Source of the DNA: Gaetbulibacter sp. 4G1
Lineage (GTDB): Bacteria; Bacteroidota; Bacteroidia; Flavobacteriales; Flavobacteriaceae
DNA length: 64,000 bases
NCBI RefSeq assembly: GCF_002741945.1
Contig: NZ_MDVN01000001.1
Coordinates: forward strand, 62,001 to 126,000
Direction of reading: 5' to 3'
Numbering within the stretch: the first letter of the stretch is position 1; each line of letters starts with the position of its first letter. Positions 55,636-63,560 of the stretch are shown here, one piece after another. The position numbers and the translations under genes were made by a program. The notes under the pieces were generated by a model. The model saw nothing but the letters and a program-made list of their open reading frames with translations, had not been told where the DNA came from and ran no database searches.

Positions 55636-57009
55636 ATGGAAAACACAAGCAAACAACAAAACAAATTTGGAAATTGGATAAAAACATCAATAACAGCAAA
55701 AATGCTTATAGTTGGCTTTTTAACATTCGTTTTACTAATACCTCTTTTTTTTATTGAGGACTTAATTAGAGAACGATCGTATAGACAAACAGAAGTAATC
55801 AATGAAATTAATCAACAATGGGGAAATGAAGTCCTAATTTATGGTCCTATATTGAAGGTACCATATAAAATATATAAAGAAAAAACAGTAACAGATAAAA
55901 AAACAAAAAAAGTATATACTGAAACTATCGAAGAAATTTACAGTGCTTATTTTTTTCCAGAAAATTTAAATATAAATTCAAGTCTAAATCCTGAAGAAAA
56001 AAAGCGGGGTATTTATACCACTGCTGTTTATAATAGCAAAATGCAAATAACAGGTTCATTTATTAAACCTGATTTTAGTGATATCGAAATTAATGATAAA
56101 GATATCCTTTGGAACAAAGCAAAAATCATAATTCAATCTTCAAATGTAAAAGGCGTTAATGAAGCAAATTTAAAACTAAATCAAGCCAATTATGAACTTA
56201 CATCTAAATATAATGGACAAAAAAACTATAATTATAATGAGTTAATACTCCACACACTTGAAACTAAAAACATTAATAAAGATCAGTTGCTTTTCATAAA
56301 ACCACTAGTCTTTAATGTCAACTTTAATATAAAAGGTAGTGAACAAATACGTTTTATACCAACTGGAAGGCAAACCGAAGCTCAAATTACTTCCAATTGG
56401 AAATCAGCTAACTTTTTTGGTGAATTTTTACCTTATAACGATGATAAAATAAATGATAGTGGGTTTAACGCAAAATGGAAAATTTTAGATCTAAACAGAC
56501 CTTTTTCTCAAGAGCATTATAATGGCATTCCAGATTTAAAAGAGTTTGCTTTTGGTGTAAACTTTATGATACCCGTAGACGAATATCAAAAAAGCGAACG
56601 CTCTGCAAAATATGGTTTTCTTGTTATAGGGCTTACATTTTTAATTTTCTTTTTAATACAAACCATGAGTAAAATAGATATTCACCCATTTCAATATTTA
56701 ATGATTGGTATAGCGCTTACTATGTTTTACACTTTACTGGTTTCAATATCAGAGCATAGTAACTTCTTAAAAGCTTATTTAATTGCAGGAACTTCAGTAA
56801 TTGTACTTATCACATTATATTCTAAATCTATATTAAAAACACTTAAGTTTCCGCTATTTATTGGGTTATCATTAACCGCTTTATATACTTTTATTTATGT
56901 GATAATTCAGTTAGAAAATTATGCCCTTTTAGTGGGCAGTATAGGGTTATTCTTAATCTTATCAATCGTCATGTTTGTATCAAGAAAAATAGATTGGAAC
57001 AATGGTTAA
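55636..57009 (+). CDS. creD: Inner-membrane protein CreD
   Basis: This 457-residue protein matches CreD. An N-terminal TM (residues ~18-40) precedes a large periplasmic domain (residues 45-330; LIEDLIRERSYRQTEVINEI, FIKPDFSDIEI, GFNAKWKILDLNRPF). Five or six TMs follow (from KYGFLVIGLTFLIFFLIQT onward). CreD in enterobacteria is induced by the CreBC system and affects envelope integrity and beta-lactam tolerance. No CreBC is present here. Its control is instead likely by the adjacent winged-helix protein. Confidence 0.9.
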   Translation: MENTSKQQNKFGNWIKTSITAKMLIVGFLTFVLLIPLFFIEDLIRERSYRQTEVINEINQQWGNEVLIYGPILKVPYKIYKEKTVTDKKTKKVYTETIEEIYSAYFFPENLNINSSLNPEEKKRGIYTTAVYNSKMQITGSFIKPDFSDIEINDKDILWNKAKIIIQSSNVKGVNEANLKLNQANYELTSKYNGQKNYNYNELILHTLETKNINKDQLLFIKPLVFNVNFNIKGSEQIRFIPTGRQTEAQITSNWKSANFFGEFLPYNDDKINDSGFNAKWKILDLNRPFSQEHYNGIPDLKEFAFGVNFMIPVDEYQKSERSAKYGFLVIGLTFLIFFLIQTMSKIDIHPFQYLMIGIALTMFYTLLVSISEHSNFLKAYLIAGTSVIVLITLYSKSILKTLKFPLFIGLSLTALYTFIYVIIQLENYALLVGSIGLFLILSIVMFVSRKIDWNNG

Positions 57010-57017
57010 TTTTATTA

Positions 57018-57122
57018 GTTAGTGATTGTGTTGGGCGTTTCCCCAAAGAAATTTGGGGTCGCGCTTTACACTATATATTTTTTTCGTGCCTCAAAAAAGG
57101 ATGCTGCTTCAATCACTAACGC
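57018..57122 (-). repeat. Structured intergenic repeat element, copy B
   Basis: The element (minus strand) starts GCGTTAGTGATTGAAGCAGC and ends near AACGCCC-AACA-CAATCACTAAC. Terminal 11-bp inverted repeats GTTAGTGATTG/CAATCACTAAC bound it at 57018-57028 and 57110-57120. Inside are conserved GCATCC, ATATAGTG-AAAGC and a CCCCAAA-TTTC-TTTGGGG hairpin. It shares these blocks with copy A at 63046-63147, which has different but still paired stems. It lies between creD and the 99-residue gene in antisense to the cluster. Confidence 0.75.
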
Positions 57123-57137
57123 AAAAAAGTATTAAGT

Positions 57138-57437
57138 ATGGATAATTTAATAAATACAAGCAAAATTATAACGCTTTTAAGTTTTGTAATTGGTACAATA
57201 TTATTTGCTCTTCAATTATATTTTAAACAATCTGATGCATTTATATCTCCTGGTCTAATCTTTGTCATTATTGCTTTAATCATAAACTCTATTTCATTAT
57301 TAGCTTTAACTTTTTCATTATTAGGTAGTACTAAACGTAAAATAGAAATACTTCAAACCTGTGGCATTGTATTATTAAATATACCAATAGCAATCTTGTA
57401 TTTCTATATACTAATATTAACCGAGTTTCGAGTTTAA
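57138..57437 (+). CDS. Small three-pass membrane protein of the exosortase K cluster
   Basis: This 99-residue protein has three hydrophobic helices (about 9-27, 38-60, 73-95) and no charged catalytic residues. I recognise no family. It begins 128 bp after creD, across the structured repeat, and is followed after 11 bp by the DUF2809 gene, so it is likely the first gene of a five-gene subunit ending with the MSEP-CTERM protein. Confidence 0.65.
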   Translation: MDNLINTSKIITLLSFVIGTILFALQLYFKQSDAFISPGLIFVIIALIINSISLLALTFSLLGSTKRKIEILQTCGIVLLNIPIAILYFYILILTEFRV

Positions 57438-57448
57438 AAATAAAATAT

Positions 57449-57826
57449 ATGAGTCTTCAATTTAACAAAATATATTTAATAATAGCAGCGCTACTTTTTA
57501 TAACAGAAGTGTTTATTGCTACCTTTTTTAAGTATGGTTTTATTCGATATACTTTTGGAGATTATTTGGTAGTTATACTACTCTACTGCTTCTTCAAAAG
57601 CTTTATAGAAGTAAACCCATTTAAACTAGCTATTTCAGTTTTAGCATTTGCTTTTTCAATTGAGTTTTTACAATTAATTAATATTCTAGAAACACTCAAT
57701 CTTCAAAACAATCATTTAGCAAAACTAATATTAGGTAGTACATTCCATATCTCAGATTTAGTGGCTTATACTCTTGGTATAATAACTGTTTTAATAGTTG
57801 AATATAAATTACAAAACCATGGATAA
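57449..57826 (+). CDS. DUF2809 family membrane protein
   Basis: This 125-residue protein has four transmembrane helices, with FIRYTFGDYLVVILLYCFFKSF and AFSIEFLQLINILETLNL as the DUF2809 pattern (a conserved GDxLV and SIEFLQ). DUF2809 members are VanZ-like in size and topology. The function is unknown. Its stop overlaps the DUF1361 start by 8 bp (ATGGATAA), indicating tight coupling. Confidence 0.78.
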   Translation: MSLQFNKIYLIIAALLFITEVFIATFFKYGFIRYTFGDYLVVILLYCFFKSFIEVNPFKLAISVLAFAFSIEFLQLINILETLNLQNNHLAKLILGSTFHISDLVAYTLGIITVLIVEYKLQNHG

Positions 57827-58478
57827 TATTAAACAACTCTTTATAAATAGGTTTAGAACCTTTACACTATTAAGTATTTCAATGACTTTTTGTATTGTAT
57901 TACTTATGATTAGAATGAAACTTACACATTCCTTTTTCTACTTGTTTTTAGTTTGGAATTTGTTTTTAGCAATCATTCCCTTTGTCATAACGACTTATTT
58001 AGTAAGTCTCCCCAAGCTTAATAAATTTGTATTAGCTTTTTGGTTTGGGGGATGGTTGCTTTTTTTGCCAAATGCCCCATACATTGTTACAGATTTAATT
58101 CATATCAGGCTAAGCAATACACGATTTGTTTGGTTAGATGTTATTGTTGTTACTTCTTTTGCTTTAAATGGGTTCATACTATTTTACTTATCTTTTTTAG
58201 ATATGATAAGCCTTTTAAACTATCATGTAAAGAAACAGTACGTTTTCTTTTCCATTCCAGTTCTACTATTTCTAAGCGCTTTTGGAGTTTATCTTGGAAG
58301 GTTTTTGCGTTACAATTCATGGGAAATTATTCAAAATCCGTTAGAATTATTTAATGATATTTTTCGAATTATCATTTACCCATCAAAACATATTGAGGCG
58401 TGGCTATTCACTATTTTATTTGGCGCATTTCTATGTATTGGTTTTTGGATATGTAATGACATAAGAAAAAATAATTAA
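57819..58478 (+). CDS. DUF1361 family membrane protein
   Basis: This protein of about 219 residues has six or so TMs. GGWLLFLPNAPYIVTDLIHI, SFLDMISLLNYH and GVYLGRFLRYNSWEI are DUF1361 hallmarks. The conserved polar NAPY, D and R residues inside the membrane suggest catalysis or transport, but nothing is established. The frame extends to a TTG at 57798, but ATG 57819 (MDNIKQLF) is more likely given the DUF2809 overlap. It ends 1 bp before xrtK. Confidence 0.8.
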   Translation: MDNIKQLFINRFRTFTLLSISMTFCIVLLMIRMKLTHSFFYLFLVWNLFLAIIPFVITTYLVSLPKLNKFVLAFWFGGWLLFLPNAPYIVTDLIHIRLSNTRFVWLDVIVVTSFALNGFILFYLSFLDMISLLNYHVKKQYVFFSIPVLLFLSAFGVYLGRFLRYNSWEIIQNPLELFNDIFRIIIYPSKHIEAWLFTILFGAFLCIGFWICNDIRKNN

Positions 58479-58479
58479 A

Positions 58480-59004
58480 ATGAAACTAATAAAGCATTCA
58501 ACATATTATATTATTGGAATAGTATTATTCATTGTTTTAAAACTTATATATTCCAATGCAGACAACAATCAAGTTTTTATCTTATTGAAACCTTTAGACA
58601 AAATTGTTGGTTTTATTCTCGACTCTCATTCGATTTATAATAATGACATTGGCTTTTTTCATGAAAAACTAAATATTACTATAGATAAATCTTGCTCTGG
58701 TTTTAATTTTTTATTGCTCTCTTCTATACTATTATATTTTTCACTTTTAAAAAACTTAAAGTCTAACTTTTTCAAAATTTCGGCAATTCCTGTAACCTTG
58801 TTTTTTGCTTATAGTTTCACGCTATTTGTAAATGCATCACGTGTTTTAACAGCAATCTTTATTGAAAAAAATACGAATTTAAATTATGTTTGGTTACACG
58901 AAGCCGAAGGTGTTTTTATTTATCTATCCTTTCTTACCACTCTATATATTTCTATCAACTACGTTCTAAATAAAATCATAAATACTCATGAAAAATTTGC
59001 TTAA
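58480..59004 (+). CDS. xrtK: Exosortase K (XrtK), transpeptidase-like membrane protease
   Basis: This 174-residue inner-membrane protein carries the exosortase triad: C72 in DKSCSGFNF, R121 in NASRVL and H140 in WLHEAEG, each in or next to a membrane segment. The compact size and the neighbouring MSEP-CTERM gene match exosortase K, a type described as having a single dedicated target. It cleaves the target near the MSEP motif and probably transfers it to an unknown acceptor. The gene follows DUF1361 by 1 bp and overlaps its substrate gene by 17 bp, enforcing joint translation. Confidence 0.9.
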   Translation: MKLIKHSTYYIIGIVLFIVLKLIYSNADNNQVFILLKPLDKIVGFILDSHSIYNNDIGFFHEKLNITIDKSCSGFNFLLLSSILLYFSLLKNLKSNFFKISAIPVTLFFAYSFTLFVNASRVLTAIFIEKNTNLNYVWLHEAEGVFIYLSFLTTLYISINYVLNKIINTHEKFA

Positions 59005-61786
59005 CCCAAAATGGTTGCTTGTTATAAACACGATTCCTGTAGTTCTTCTGTCGTTCATTTATTATAACGAATTCGATGTTATAAAAACACTTTTAGAGGA
59101 AGATAGTATACAACTGTGGTATAACTTTGGAGGCATTCTTTTTGGACTATCAATACTTCTTTTAGGGTATGTTCTGTATAGCATTCAACAGAAAAAAGAG
59201 GTTTCTGTTTTCTATGCGTTTTCAGCTTTATCAGTATACACAATTTATCTATACATCTATAGTATTTATAGCTCAGATATTATTCCTTGGAATATTCCTA
59301 GATGGATGCTTTCACAAGATTCAGTTTTATACCCTGGTACATTTTTAATGCCAACATTGGCTCATGCTTTATTTATTATAGTTATTAAATTGACTTCAAA
59401 AGCTAAAGATTTAAAAGCTTGGAAAAGTTTTTTATTAGCACTTTCAATTCCTCTTCTTACTTATATTTTTGTTCAAGTCATTTTACCTCTTTGGCAACCT
59501 ACAAGTTATAGATACAATAACCATGTTTTAGTTGTTGGTTTGGTAGTATGTGTTATTCTATTTCTATTCTTTTTAATTCGTAGTATTTATATTTTATCCA
59601 TTAAAAAAGGAAAAAACTGGTCTCAGCTTTATTTAGTAGCAAAGTTTTTGGTAGGCGTCGTGTTTCCATTACTCGGTCTACTAATAAATAATAAATTCAA
59701 TAGTGTTTTTGGTGATTTCAATACACCATGGTTTTATATTATTGCCCTAACAAATGGTCTTCTAATATGTGTAACCTCATCTGAAAACAAACAGCATAGA
59801 CTTATCTTATTTATTACCAGATGTATAACATATTCTTTTACATTTTACTTCTTTATTGTGTTTTTACCTTTCTTGCCCCTATCTGTTATTGCTATTGTTG
59901 CCATAGGTTTGGGTTTTTTAATGCTAACTCCTTTAGTGTTATTTATTATTCATACACAAGAATTATCGAGTGATTATAAATTTCTAAAAAACTTCTACTC
60001 TAAACAAGTTTTAATTATATCTGGAATTATTGGGTTTCTTGCAATACCTACAATATTAGCTTTATCTTATCAAAGAGATAAAATTGTACTATATGAAACT
60101 CTAGATTACCTGTATAATCCTGATTACTCCAAGGATTACAATATAAATAAAGAATCTCTTAAAAAAACCTTAGAGGTTGTTAAACATAATAAATCACGTA
60201 ATTCTGATTTTTTCATGAGTTCTCAAACACCATATTTATCAAGTTTTTTTAACTGGATTGTTTTAGATAATTTGACTTTATCTGACATAAAAATTAAAAC
60301 CATTGAAAAAATATTTTTCGACACAAAACCATTTGAATTGAGGGCAGAAAGGTTAAGAAATAAAAACGTAGACATATCAAACATAAGCTCGAATAGCACT
60401 TATAATGAAACTGATAACACATGGACAAGTTGGATAGATTTAGAAATTACAAACGCTAATAAAGACAATTTCACTTCTGAATATGCAACAACCATAGATT
60501 TACCCAACGGGTGCTGGATAAATGATTATTACCTTTATGTTGGTGACAGAAAAGAAATGGGAATTTTAACTGAAAAAAAATCAGCCATGTGGATTTTTTC
60601 TCAAATAAGAAACATTAATCAAGACCCAGGGTTGTTGCATTATTTAACTGGAAACAAAGTTTCTTTTAGAGTTTTTCCTTTTTCTGAAAATGAAATAAGA
60701 AGAACAGGAATTCAATTTATTCACAAAGAACCTATTACCATTAAAATTGACAATCATAAACTTACTTTAGGAGAAAAAAAGGAAACCTTAATCAATCATA
60801 AAAAGAATGACCAAATCGTTTACATTTCTTCAAAAGAAAAAGAAACACTTAAAAAGATAAAACGAAAACCTTATTATCATTTCATTATAGATACTTCACA
60901 TGAAAAAGATTCGCTAATAAACAACTATATAAAGGCTCTAGATGATTTTATAACTACCAATAATATAGACACAATGGAAGCTAAAATAAGTTTTGCAAAT
61001 ACCTTTGTTGAAACTGAAAGCTTTAATGGTGAATGGAAAAACAGCTTAAAAGAGCAAGAGTTTGAAGGTGGATTTTATTTAGAACGCGCTATAAAAAAAG
61101 TTCTCTTTAATTCATATACTAATCTTTCTAACAAATACCCTATCATTATTGTAGTTACAGATAATATGCTTGATGCTGTTATAAATAAAAACTTTGCAGA
61201 TTTTAAAATAGCTTTCCCAGAGAGCAACAGTTTTTATCATCTAAATACATTAGGCTATTTAGCTTCTCATAGCCTAGTAAGAAATCCTAAAGATTTTGTA
61301 AACGATAATACTGTGGTTGACATTGATAATGAGGTCTTAGCATGGCCAAATCCAATTAGTCCAGTAGCGTATTTACCTAATGATAGTTTGCCTAATATTG
61401 TTTTGAAAAACTCTGTTTTTGATTTTAAAGAAAATGCTATTGGTGAATCAAACTGGAATACAGGCTTACATTTACAAGGAAAATGGTTATCTGATATATT
61501 TTATCCTGAGAATGCTCAAACAGATTGGAATAATGCTGTAAAAATGAGTTTTAAATCTAAAATAATGACACCGCTTACTTCTTACATTGTTGTTGAAAAT
61601 GAAGCTCAAAAAGCAGCTTTACTTAAAAAACAAAAAGAAGTGTTAGCTGGAAAAAAATCTTTAGACCTCAATGAAAGAACACAACGCATGTCTGAGCCCA
61701 AATTAATACTATTACTAATTTTAATTGGAGTGTTTTTATTTTTAAGACGACGACAAATTATAAATAACTATAAACCATCAACATAG
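58988..61786 (+). CDS. MSEP-CTERM sorting-signal protein with VIT and degenerate vWA-like domains
   Basis: This 932-residue protein has ten or eleven N-terminal TMs (residues ~9-360, for example WLLVINTIPVVLLSFIYY). A soluble part follows, with a VIT-like domain (~496-585: TTIDLPNGCWINDYYLYVGD) and a vWA-like domain (from 631). The MIDAS position reads DTSHEKDS instead of DxSxS, so metal binding is doubtful. The C-terminal tail is the sorting signal: MSEP at 901-904, a hydrophobic helix 905-919 and RRR at 920-922. It is the expected substrate of XrtK. Its role is unknown. The 3' end overlaps the convergent dehydrogenase gene by 19 bp. Confidence 0.88.
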   Translation: MKNLLNPKWLLVINTIPVVLLSFIYYNEFDVIKTLLEEDSIQLWYNFGGILFGLSILLLGYVLYSIQQKKEVSVFYAFSALSVYTIYLYIYSIYSSDIIPWNIPRWMLSQDSVLYPGTFLMPTLAHALFIIVIKLTSKAKDLKAWKSFLLALSIPLLTYIFVQVILPLWQPTSYRYNNHVLVVGLVVCVILFLFFLIRSIYILSIKKGKNWSQLYLVAKFLVGVVFPLLGLLINNKFNSVFGDFNTPWFYIIALTNGLLICVTSSENKQHRLILFITRCITYSFTFYFFIVFLPFLPLSVIAIVAIGLGFLMLTPLVLFIIHTQELSSDYKFLKNFYSKQVLIISGIIGFLAIPTILALSYQRDKIVLYETLDYLYNPDYSKDYNINKESLKKTLEVVKHNKSRNSDFFMSSQTPYLSSFFNWIVLDNLTLSDIKIKTIEKIFFDTKPFELRAERLRNKNVDISNISSNSTYNETDNTWTSWIDLEITNANKDNFTSEYATTIDLPNGCWINDYYLYVGDRKEMGILTEKKSAMWIFSQIRNINQDPGLLHYLTGNKVSFRVFPFSENEIRRTGIQFIHKEPITIKIDNHKLTLGEKKETLINHKKNDQIVYISSKEKETLKKIKRKPYYHFIIDTSHEKDSLINNYIKALDDFITTNNIDTMEAKISFANTFVETESFNGEWKNSLKEQEFEGGFYLERAIKKVLFNSYTNLSNKYPIIIVVTDNMLDAVINKNFADFKIAFPESNSFYHLNTLGYLASHSLVRNPKDFVNDNTVVDIDNEVLAWPNPISPVAYLPNDSLPNIVLKNSVFDFKENAIGESNWNTGLHLQGKWLSDIFYPENAQTDWNNAVKMSFKSKIMTPLTSYIVVENEAQKAALLKKQKEVLAGKKSLDLNERTQRMSEPKLILLLILIGVFLFLRRRQIINNYKPST

Positions 61787-62970
61787 CTTTGTAAATAAGC
61801 AAAACGCTCAGTGAGTTTCCCGTTTTCTGTAATTTTAGCACGCTCTAAAACACCATCTTTATCATCATTAAAAAATGCAGGGATAACATGCTCTAAAAAC
61901 ATATCGCCAAAACCTTCGCTTGCATCTTTAGGGAGTTCGCAAGGTAAATTATCGACTGCCATAACAGTTATTGCATTGTTTGCATCAAAATCAACTTCAC
62001 TTTCTGTTTGTGGATCATAACCATAAAAAGGTTCTGCAATAGTAGAAGCTCGTAATGTTGATGCAACAGGTCCGTCAACATCGCAAGAAATGTCGGCTAC
62101 TAAATTGATATTAAAATTTGGTTGTTTGGCATCTTCTCTTGTAAATAAGTAAGGTGCATTATTACCATAAAAATGACCAGCTATAAAAAAATCGGTTTCT
62201 TTGGCGTATGGCATAAAATTACTTTCATAACCTGTTGGGTCTTTATAAAACTCCCACTTATCACCTACTTTGCCATCTTTACGCTTATTATATTCCATTA
62301 CATCAACCAAACAATAAACAGGTTCTGTAAATTTTGATGTTAAATATAAAGCATCACTTACTTGTTTTACTTTTAAATGCTCCAAAATTTCTTTTGCGCC
62401 ATGGGCTACTTTTCCTGTACCAGACAATAAAATTTTAATATTTGGCAAAGTAATTTTATCTAACTCACGCTTAACAGCATCTAAATCGGCTAGTGTTTCT
62501 ACTTTTGGCAAACTAAATAAATTGTCTCTTAAACCCAATGCTCTAAACCCATTATAAGCGCCTACCAATCCTGCGTAGCGGCCAAAGCCTATTAATCTGA
62601 ACCCTTTTTCGTTTACTATGGTTTCGTGGTCGTATAACTCAATATTTTTATCAAGAATTGCTTGAAGCAATTTACGATTATAGGGCTGTTTCTTTATGGT
62701 GTGCGAAAAGAAAAAATATTTTTTATTTGGAATTAAGTTTTCAATAGGTACTTCTTTTACACCAATCATAACATCGCAATTACTTACATCATTTGTAACT
62801 TCTAGTCCATTGCTTATGTATTGCTCATCTGGAAAAACACGAATATCTGACGTTTCAACCTTAAATTCTCCCTGAGGAAATTTCTCTTTAGTTTCTGCAA
62901 ATTTTTCAGGAGAAAATACAACACGTCTATCTGGTGGGTTTTTACGCTCTTTTATAATGGCAAACTTCAT
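61768..62970 (-). CDS. Alanine dehydrogenase / saccharopine dehydrogenase (LYS1-like) family protein
   Basis: This 400-residue NAD-dependent dehydrogenase begins KFAIIKERKNPPDRRVVFSPE, typical of the AlaDH/PNT N-terminal domain. The nucleotide-binding motif is LLSGTGKVAHGAKEIL, and DISCDVDGPVAST is a late conserved block. Bacteroidota homologues are labelled either alanine dehydrogenase or saccharopine dehydrogenase (lysine-forming), and I cannot choose by motif alone. Lysine degradation is plausible. It lies convergent to the MSEP-CTERM gene. Confidence 0.8.
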   Translation of the reverse strand: MKFAIIKERKNPPDRRVVFSPEKFAETKEKFPQGEFKVETSDIRVFPDEQYISNGLEVTNDVSNCDVMIGVKEVPIENLIPNKKYFFFSHTIKKQPYNRKLLQAILDKNIELYDHETIVNEKGFRLIGFGRYAGLVGAYNGFRALGLRDNLFSLPKVETLADLDAVKRELDKITLPNIKILLSGTGKVAHGAKEILEHLKVKQVSDALYLTSKFTEPVYCLVDVMEYNKRKDGKVGDKWEFYKDPTGYESNFMPYAKETDFFIAGHFYGNNAPYLFTREDAKQPNFNINLVADISCDVDGPVASTLRASTIAEPFYGYDPQTESEVDFDANNAITVMAVDNLPCELPKDASEGFGDMFLEHVIPAFFNDDKDGVLERAKITENGKLTERFAYLQSYVDGL

Positions 62971-63035
62971 ATATATTTTGGTATAAATTTTGTACGAAAA
63001 TAAGAGTTAATGCAGGTGTATACAAACTTTTTTGA

Positions 63036-63043
63036 TAACTTTG
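63036..63043 (+). promoter_or_regulatory. -7 box TAACTTTG upstream of copy A and tmRNA
   Basis: TAACTTTG matches TAnnTTTG and would start transcription near 63049, at the first bases of structured repeat copy A and about 115 nt before mature tmRNA. No good TTG at -33 is visible. Confidence 0.45.
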
Positions 63044-63045
63044 CT

Positions 63046-63147
63046 GCCCGCGTTAAGGATTGAAACGGCATCCTTTTGCTTTTTTGCAAAAGATATAGTG
63101 GAAAGCCTGACGCACTTTTGCTATGAAAAGCAAAAGTGGGTAACGCC
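63046..63147 (+). repeat. Structured intergenic repeat element, copy A
   Basis: Element A runs GCCCGCGTTAAGGATTGAAA to GGGTAACGCC. It contains CTTTTGC-TTTTTT-GCAAAAG and CACTTTTGCT-ATGAAA-AGCAAAAGTG hairpins and an outer GCGTTA/TAACGC pairing. It aligns with copy B at GCGTTA, GATTGAA, GCATCCTTTT, ATATAGTG, AAAGC and AACGCC. Between the -7 box and tmRNA it would form the 5' part of a precursor. Confidence 0.75.
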
Positions 63148-63166: not shown

Positions 63167-63557
63167 GGGGTCGACTGGTTTTGACAGCGAGATTAATTAA
63201 ACGGTAAGCACGTCGTGTAATGGCATTGAAACACGTTAAAGGCTAGACCAAATTTTAAACGGCGAGAATAACTACGCTTTAGCTGCATAATCTGAATTAT
63301 AGTAAGATTAGCCTTGTCCTACTAGGTAGGAAAGCTTTATGTCTCTGGAAAGCCTTGGTTAACGGCGTTCCATTTTGAGGCATCGTAAATGTTAACATAG
63401 ATTTTGTGGCGCTTTGACACATTTTTGAAACTAAAAAAGATAAGTTGTAAGTAGAATGTTTTTAATCGGCTTACAATCGAAAACCAAGAAAAAACTAAGC
63501 GTGTAGAAAACTCTTTGGTTACTTGTTTGGACGAGAGTTCGATTCTCTCCGACTCCA
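63167..63557 (+). ncRNA. ssrA: tmRNA (SsrA)
   Basis: This 391-nt RNA rescues stalled ribosomes with SmpB and tags nascent peptides. The 5' end GGGGTCGACTGGTTTTGACA and the 3' end with T-loop TTCGATT close by GGGGTCG/CGACTCC, discriminator A, with no CCA encoded. The tag frame starts at 63261. It is a one-piece form. The intergenic segment downstream holds a terminator. Confidence 0.96.
63261..63290 (+). other. tmRNA tag-peptide reading frame
   Basis: The codons GGC GAG AAT AAC TAC GCT TTA GCT GCA then TAA encode GENNYALAA. The LAA end is the recognised ClpXP degron. The resume codon is GGC, as in other Flavobacteriia. Confidence 0.9.
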
Positions 63558-63560
63558 CAA

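Follow-up and report, generated by a model that had tools for sequence, protein, structure and literature searches.

The 64,000-nucleotide stretch of Gaetbulibacter sp. 4G1 DNA analysed here (the window) contains two copies of a structured repeat of about 100 bp, raising the questions of which family they represent and whether their structure serves RNA or DNA. The initial annotation had located both copies and listed the sequence blocks they share; we confirmed both in the sequence, and cmscan scores exclude chance. The elements, their parts and their neighbours are as follows.

63050..63147, + strand: copy A, a full three-way junction lying upstream of the tmRNA gene, running from GCGTTA (63050-63055) to the GCC ending at 63147
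63050..63055, + strand: copy A outer helix, 5' strand GCGTTA, with its partner at 63141-63146
63056..63108, + strand: copy A Flavo-1 arm, class 1, AGGATTGAAACGGCATCC ... GATATAGTGGAAAGCCT
63111..63140, + strand: copy A second hairpin, hypervariable, CGCACTTTTGC ... GCAAAAGTGGG
63141..63146, + strand: copy A outer helix, 3' strand TAACGC
57034..57122, - strand: copy B, likewise complete, between creD and the gene after it, running from GCGTTA (57117-57122) down to GCC at 57034
57061..57116, - strand: copy B Flavo-1 arm, class 1
57041..57058, - strand: copy B second hairpin, CCCCAAATTTCTTTGGGG
63167..63560, + strand: tmRNA gene, context of copy A (RF00023, 133.6 bits)
55636..57009, + strand: creD homologue, context of copy B (PF06123, 473.7 bits)
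57016..57028, + strand: partial 5' frame TAGTTAGTGATTG, facing copy B and inverted to it (2 mismatches)
63036..63043, + strand: TAACTTTG, fitting the flavobacterial -7 box TAnnTTTG, directly before copy A

The two copies and the Flavo-1 family

Copy A matched the Rfam family RF01705 (Flavo-1) at 63038-63116 on the + strand when the window was searched with cmscan (52.4 bits, E 1.7e-8). Copy B scored 37.6 bits in a search of a 6.4-kb stretch (E 2.1e-5), below the gathering score of 42 bits, and is accepted as a family member through the shared frame rather than by score alone. Both copies fold better than their own shuffles (z -3.0 for copy A and -3.7 for copy B). The initial annotation knew of no described family, a point that the Rfam matches overturn. 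Flavo-1 was reported as a Bacteroidetes motif without an assigned function by Weinberg et al. in 2010 (PMC2864571), and a 2022 review counts it among the most abundant small RNAs of bacteria without naming a function (PMC9029176).

The Rfam model agrees with both copies in sequence and structure, and its taxon range is Bacteroidetes. Its 76 positions cover the arm and short flanks only, and it is filed as an sRNA (type Gene). Missing from it are the GCGTTA/TAACGC outer helix, the second hairpin, the other arm classes and the replacement of arms. The family itself was already known; new here are the outer junction, the arm of class 2 and the replacement of arms, none of which we found described in the open-licence literature searched.

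The site of copy A is filled in all four genomes of the genus, namely that of strain 4G1 (G000) and three others (G006, G199 and G200). The motif preceding it fits the -7 box consensus of flavobacteria (PMC9723704) and is retained in the other three genomes as well, four species in all. Given this box, copy A is possibly transcribed as the 5' leader of pre-tmRNA, in which case the precursor may start at about the element.

Near copy B, the partial frame at 57016-57028 is possibly the remnant of a second element; the number of partial-frame matches in the window as a whole was not above chance expectation. The inverted partial frame can pair with the foot of the copy B arm, and a similar sequence is present at the same site in G006. 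Other frame-like matches in the window were rejected as being coding sequence by eye or as lacking the rest of the element.

Architecture and dispersal of the full element

The full element is a three-way junction, usually of 80-110 nt, in which GCGTTA, the arm, CCGACC, the second hairpin, GG, TAACGCC and CAAA follow one another. Most copies in G000 have GCGTTA before the Flavo-1 arm and TAACGC after the second hairpin. A fixed frame, made up of the GCGTTA/TAACGC outer helix plus the GGGATTG/AAAGCCCGAC base, carries an exchangeable arm and a hypervariable second hairpin. The latter spans 8 to about 50 nt, varies in sequence and is paired in most copies. The second hairpins of copies A and B (CACTTTTGCT/AGCAAAAGTG versus CCCCAAA/TTTGGGG) are both real, but two sequences do not suffice to show the covariation that the initial annotation read from them, this hairpin being hypervariable over all copies.

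A conserved structure with compensating changes, as proposed in the initial annotation, was demonstrated in larger sets of copies. When 26 copies from G000 were aligned over 16 pairs, 98.3% of cells held standard pairs, double changes occurred in 8 of 16 pairs, and covariation was 0.408 compared with 0.158 in shuffles (reached by 0 of 500). For 83 copies from other genomes, whose alignment was fitted to the model, the corresponding values were 96.6%, 13 of 16 pairs, and 0.440 versus 0.120 (again 0 of 500). Five of the six outer-helix pairs showed double changes in the other-genome alignment. A covariance-model search, which had been suggested as a check, found full-length copies with paired changes in G199 and G200 when the model was built on the whole junction; neither genome was used for building.

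With RF01705, 35 matches exceeded the gathering score in G000, and 44, spread over both strands, had E values below 1e-3; G199 had 25 matches and G127, a genome of another genus, 126. Our frame-based census covered 680 kb of C21. The expectation of many intergenic copies in the family also held, with matches in 123 of 199 Flavobacteriaceae genomes, nearly every genus being represented by a single genome and counts being capped at 22 per genome. Carriage by phages or plasmids was not detected, there being no match in IMG/VR (tight pattern), INPHARED (blastn) or PLSDB (blastn).

The arm itself comes in classes. Class 1 is Flavo-1, and class 2, GGCATTTGTTGAAGCTC...GCGACTGCC, shares the outer frame but is unlike Flavo-1. 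Searching with a pattern built on the 3' half of class 2 arms gave 10-14 places per genome of the genus, compared with 0 for the reversed control pattern, and class 2 elements covary as well (0.168 versus 0.092 in shuffles, 0 of 500). There is at least one more arm type, seen at site 466010 in G199 and at locus L043. In G127, the class 1 arm occupies a different frame, TAGCCC ... GGAAATAGCTCC, and class 1 and class 2 arms each occur in both the GCGTTA and the TAGCCC frames. Flavo-1 of Rfam is one arm class of a dispersed, structured mosaic repeat of Flavobacteriaceae.

Repeats were also seen within the loops. At loci L038, L042, L045 and L134, and in one G200 element (38819 of the reversed stretch), the long loops of class 1 arms hold a repeat, AGATTGCCACGTCG...CGCAATGAC, whose core is resembled by the short loop GAGGCACGA. 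Arm apices with and without this repeat alternate at one site. A hairpin repeat, CTGAGCGNAGTCGAAG, lies in the second-hairpin slot or in a side loop of the class 2 arm at L017, L151, L156, L145 and L158, a case of repeats nested inside the hairpin loops of other repeats. The genus of G127 (loci L253-L280) has over 100 class 1 copies in the TAGCCC...AGCTCC frame, which makes it promising for finding an active system.

Arms and loops are replaced at sites with unchanged flanks

To follow single sites, we compared a syntenic stretch of G000 (C21:1-680000) and G200 (C1:425101-825100) that is 90% identical. About a dozen sites carry an element in both genomes. Sites are in general well kept, most being shared at 83-90% identity. 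Elements at 386437, 392828, 412970 and 451848 are identical or differ by one base. At 466010 and 625958 the class is kept with several substitutions, while at 276355 and 292861 the class is kept and the loop is changed, 292861 differing in the arm tip alone. The arm class is switched at 352286, 517716, 525159 and 641664, that is, at 4 of about 12 sites.

The flanks of the switched sites are 89-96% identical up to the element edge or to within a few bases of it. The exception is 525159, where G200 and G199 have a neighbouring repeat that is absent from G000. With G199 as the outgroup, three switches are derived in the G000 lineage and run in both directions (one from class 1 to 2', one from 2' to 1, and one from 2 to 1). 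Arms that switched class or changed loop match arms elsewhere in their own genome at 77-88%, compared with 38-63% for the orthologous G200 arm. The best match at another locus is 88%, and no exact donor copy was found.

Three sites (517716, 641664 and the tmRNA site) changed the arm but retained the outer helix and the second hairpin. At 641664, GGG of the imported 5' base lies opposite the resident CGC, and this mismatch places the breakpoint at the foot of the arm. At the tmRNA site, G200 has the same Flavo-1 arm as G000, and G006 and G199 have an arm of the GGCATTTGTTGAAGCTC ... GCGACTGCC type within the same outer helix and beside a similar second hairpin. Against RF01705, this site scores 26.6 bits in G006, and there is no match at it in G199.

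Class differences of this kind could be alleles swapped between species by ordinary homologous recombination, which would call for no special process. Imports should bring foreign flanks, however, whereas the observed flanks stay at the genome average (89-96%) to the element edge. Allele exchange also leaves unexplained how two arm classes arose at one site, and we judge it improbable.

The elements at 260823 and 343090 are intact in G200 and decayed or reduced to their ends in G000. At 343090, a 161-bp element in G200 corresponds to GTGTTAGGATAACGCC in G000, which consists of both ends without the arms and could be either a remnant or an unfilled frame. At 458027, neither G200 nor G199 has an element, but the surroundings are rearranged, so this is not a clean empty site. 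The element at 466010 is whole in G199, next to 5' intergenic DNA that can no longer be aligned.

This last site bears on the idea of a host-selected structural landmark, such as a terminator, a protector of mRNA 3' ends or a protein-binding cruciform. Any arm of the right shape would then serve, and swaps would be tolerated. An element kept while its surroundings diverge fits such a role, as do the frequent position of elements just after stop codons and the excess of convergent over divergent gene pairs around them (14 versus 7). The decayed remnants at 260823 and 343090 argue against it, and a position after stop codons would also be expected if other positions were harmful. We consider a landmark role unlikely.

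RNA, converting DNA or mobile element

The initial annotation had left the choice between RNA and single-stranded DNA. Its structural part stands, and the evidence now leans away from a dedicated RNA on account of orientation, mispairs and published transcriptome data (PMC9723704). As a functional RNA, either an sRNA or a cis-regulatory element, Flavo-1 would be active when transcribed and its copies would be kept for regulation. The strong covariation in 26 and 83 copies agrees with this, as does the conservation of many sites within the genus. The site directly before sufS (TIGR01979) is conserved across several genera, with a class 1 arm in G000, G006, G044, G049, G051 and G017 (five genera); in G036 the same frame holds a class 2 arm. 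Copy A, moreover, probably lies at the start of the tmRNA precursor, with its box (63036-63043) present in four species.

Several observations oppose an RNA function. The sufS site is empty in several other genera, and unrelated arm sequences replace each other at one site. Elements lie in both orientations to genes, rather than in the constant orientation of cis-regulatory elements. With genes taken as longest open frames, the neighbours of intergenic copies, read relative to the element (n = 54), were -- in 22 cases, +- in 14, ++ in 11 and -+ in 7, so that tandem contexts comprised 22 antisense and 11 sense (p 0.08). Of 39 cases in G199, 27 had the element on the strand opposite to the leading one (p 0.02), origin and terminus being placed by GC skew. 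Both of these biases are weak. In the F. psychrophilum transcriptome of Guerin et al., Flavo-1 matches likewise lie sense or antisense without distinction, many of them in untranscribed DNA (PMC9723704).

Mispairs in the helices give a further view of the folding molecule. Counts of G.U to A.C were 7:1 in the 26 own-genome copies, 16:13 in the 83 independent copies and 9:8 in class 2, compared with 44:0 for tRNAs of the same genomes, a yardstick taken from ARAGORN, which may not bracket A.C. The independent copies thus lack the excess of G.U over A.C that would speak for RNA; taken together, the counts neither favour nor exclude an RNA fold. A strand bias by G.T versus A.C, suggested by 7:1 on 26 copies, was gone at 16:13 on 83 and was dropped. 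Overall, we find a dedicated RNA function doubtful.

The reading we favour, with a probability of roughly one half, takes the Flavo-1 element for a mosaic repeat of intergenic DNA, not a dedicated regulatory RNA, with short-homology conversion letting other copies overwrite its arms. Replacement would then amount to ectopic gene conversion from one copy to another. A break may arise where the hairpin arm stalls replication or is cut, and would be repaired from another copy as short shared segments of the frame anneal. The conversion tract would stop at the frame because the arm classes have no common sequence beyond it. Both classes share about 12-14 nt of frame on each side, which accounts for the position of the breakpoints. 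For RecA-type conversion this is a short homology, and a dedicated enzyme is perhaps needed. New sites would arise rarely, and the structure would persist since well-folded arms are the ones copied, not through service to a neighbouring gene.

Some observations run counter to conversion. The well-kept sites and the intact element at 466010 could also mean host selection, and the own-genome count of G.T 7 versus A.C 1 hints at one folding strand. The conserved symmetric internal loops suggest that one strand is recognised by something.

Transposition offers other routes of spread. REP/REPIN-like elements are moved by a Y1 HUH transposase (of RAYT or IS200/IS605 type) acting on a folded strand. 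Flavo-1 resembles them as a hairpin with a constant frame, intergenic and in many copies, and Y1 genes are present in 72 of 199 family genomes, with 14 matches in G006. A profile search of G000, however, gave 0 matches to the Y1 transposase PF01797 despite three derived swaps in this lineage, which excludes Y1 as a present requirement, a recent loss being possible. RF01705 matches above gathering were found near none of 20 Y1/RAYT-like loci from relatives, and the weak orientation bias in G199 points away from the lagging-strand template (12 versus 27, p 0.02). Y1/RAYT mobilisation is not supported by these searches, and we think it quite improbable.

Derivation as a MITE from a DDE insertion sequence appears very improbable. 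The dispersed copies do have short terminal inverted repeats (GCGTTA/TAACGC, 6 bp), but one would not expect a MITE to have a covarying internal structure, and target-site duplication was not detected, the mean longest shared flank word of 35 copies being 5.03 compared with 4.94 in shuffles. A single element, at L023, has an 11-bp direct repeat, ATTAGTTTGAA, on both sides, with no such trend over the 35 copies.

The mosaic repeat can also be set beside other folded or modular elements. Integron attC sites are short, imperfect folded elements with conserved ends, AAC...GTT, and a variable loop. Flavo-1 elements share these traits, but their ends read GTT...AAC and gene cassettes were not seen. 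The BOX repeats have a modular make-up, boxA-B-C. BOX elements of Streptococcus pneumoniae (PMC3049150) are similarly small, modular and intergenic with conserved ends and a variable middle, whereas the Flavo-1 element, at fixed sites, exchanges its middle for arms of an unrelated class. REP/BIME and REPIN sequences with their RAYTs (PMC3116915, PMC2817692) are also dispersed, intergenic, palindromic and mosaic. Set against these, the Flavo-1 element has a three-way junction and an exchangeable arm, with no Y1 transposase in the genome and no RAYT beside its copies.

We tentatively raise the possibility, itself rather unlikely, of a new kind of small mobile DNA. Its unit of spread would be the hairpin arm, homing into resident copies of the frame at fixed sites, served by a putative enzyme or by hairpin-provoked break repair, without a transposase of its own or target duplication.

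Should the Flavo-1 element prove to be a converting DNA repeat, then a large "sRNA" family would be misfiled, and the automated annotation of sRNAs in flavobacteria would be affected. Arm replacement is visible at 10% divergence, which makes it testable whether small repeats persist by transposition, host selection or mutual overwriting.
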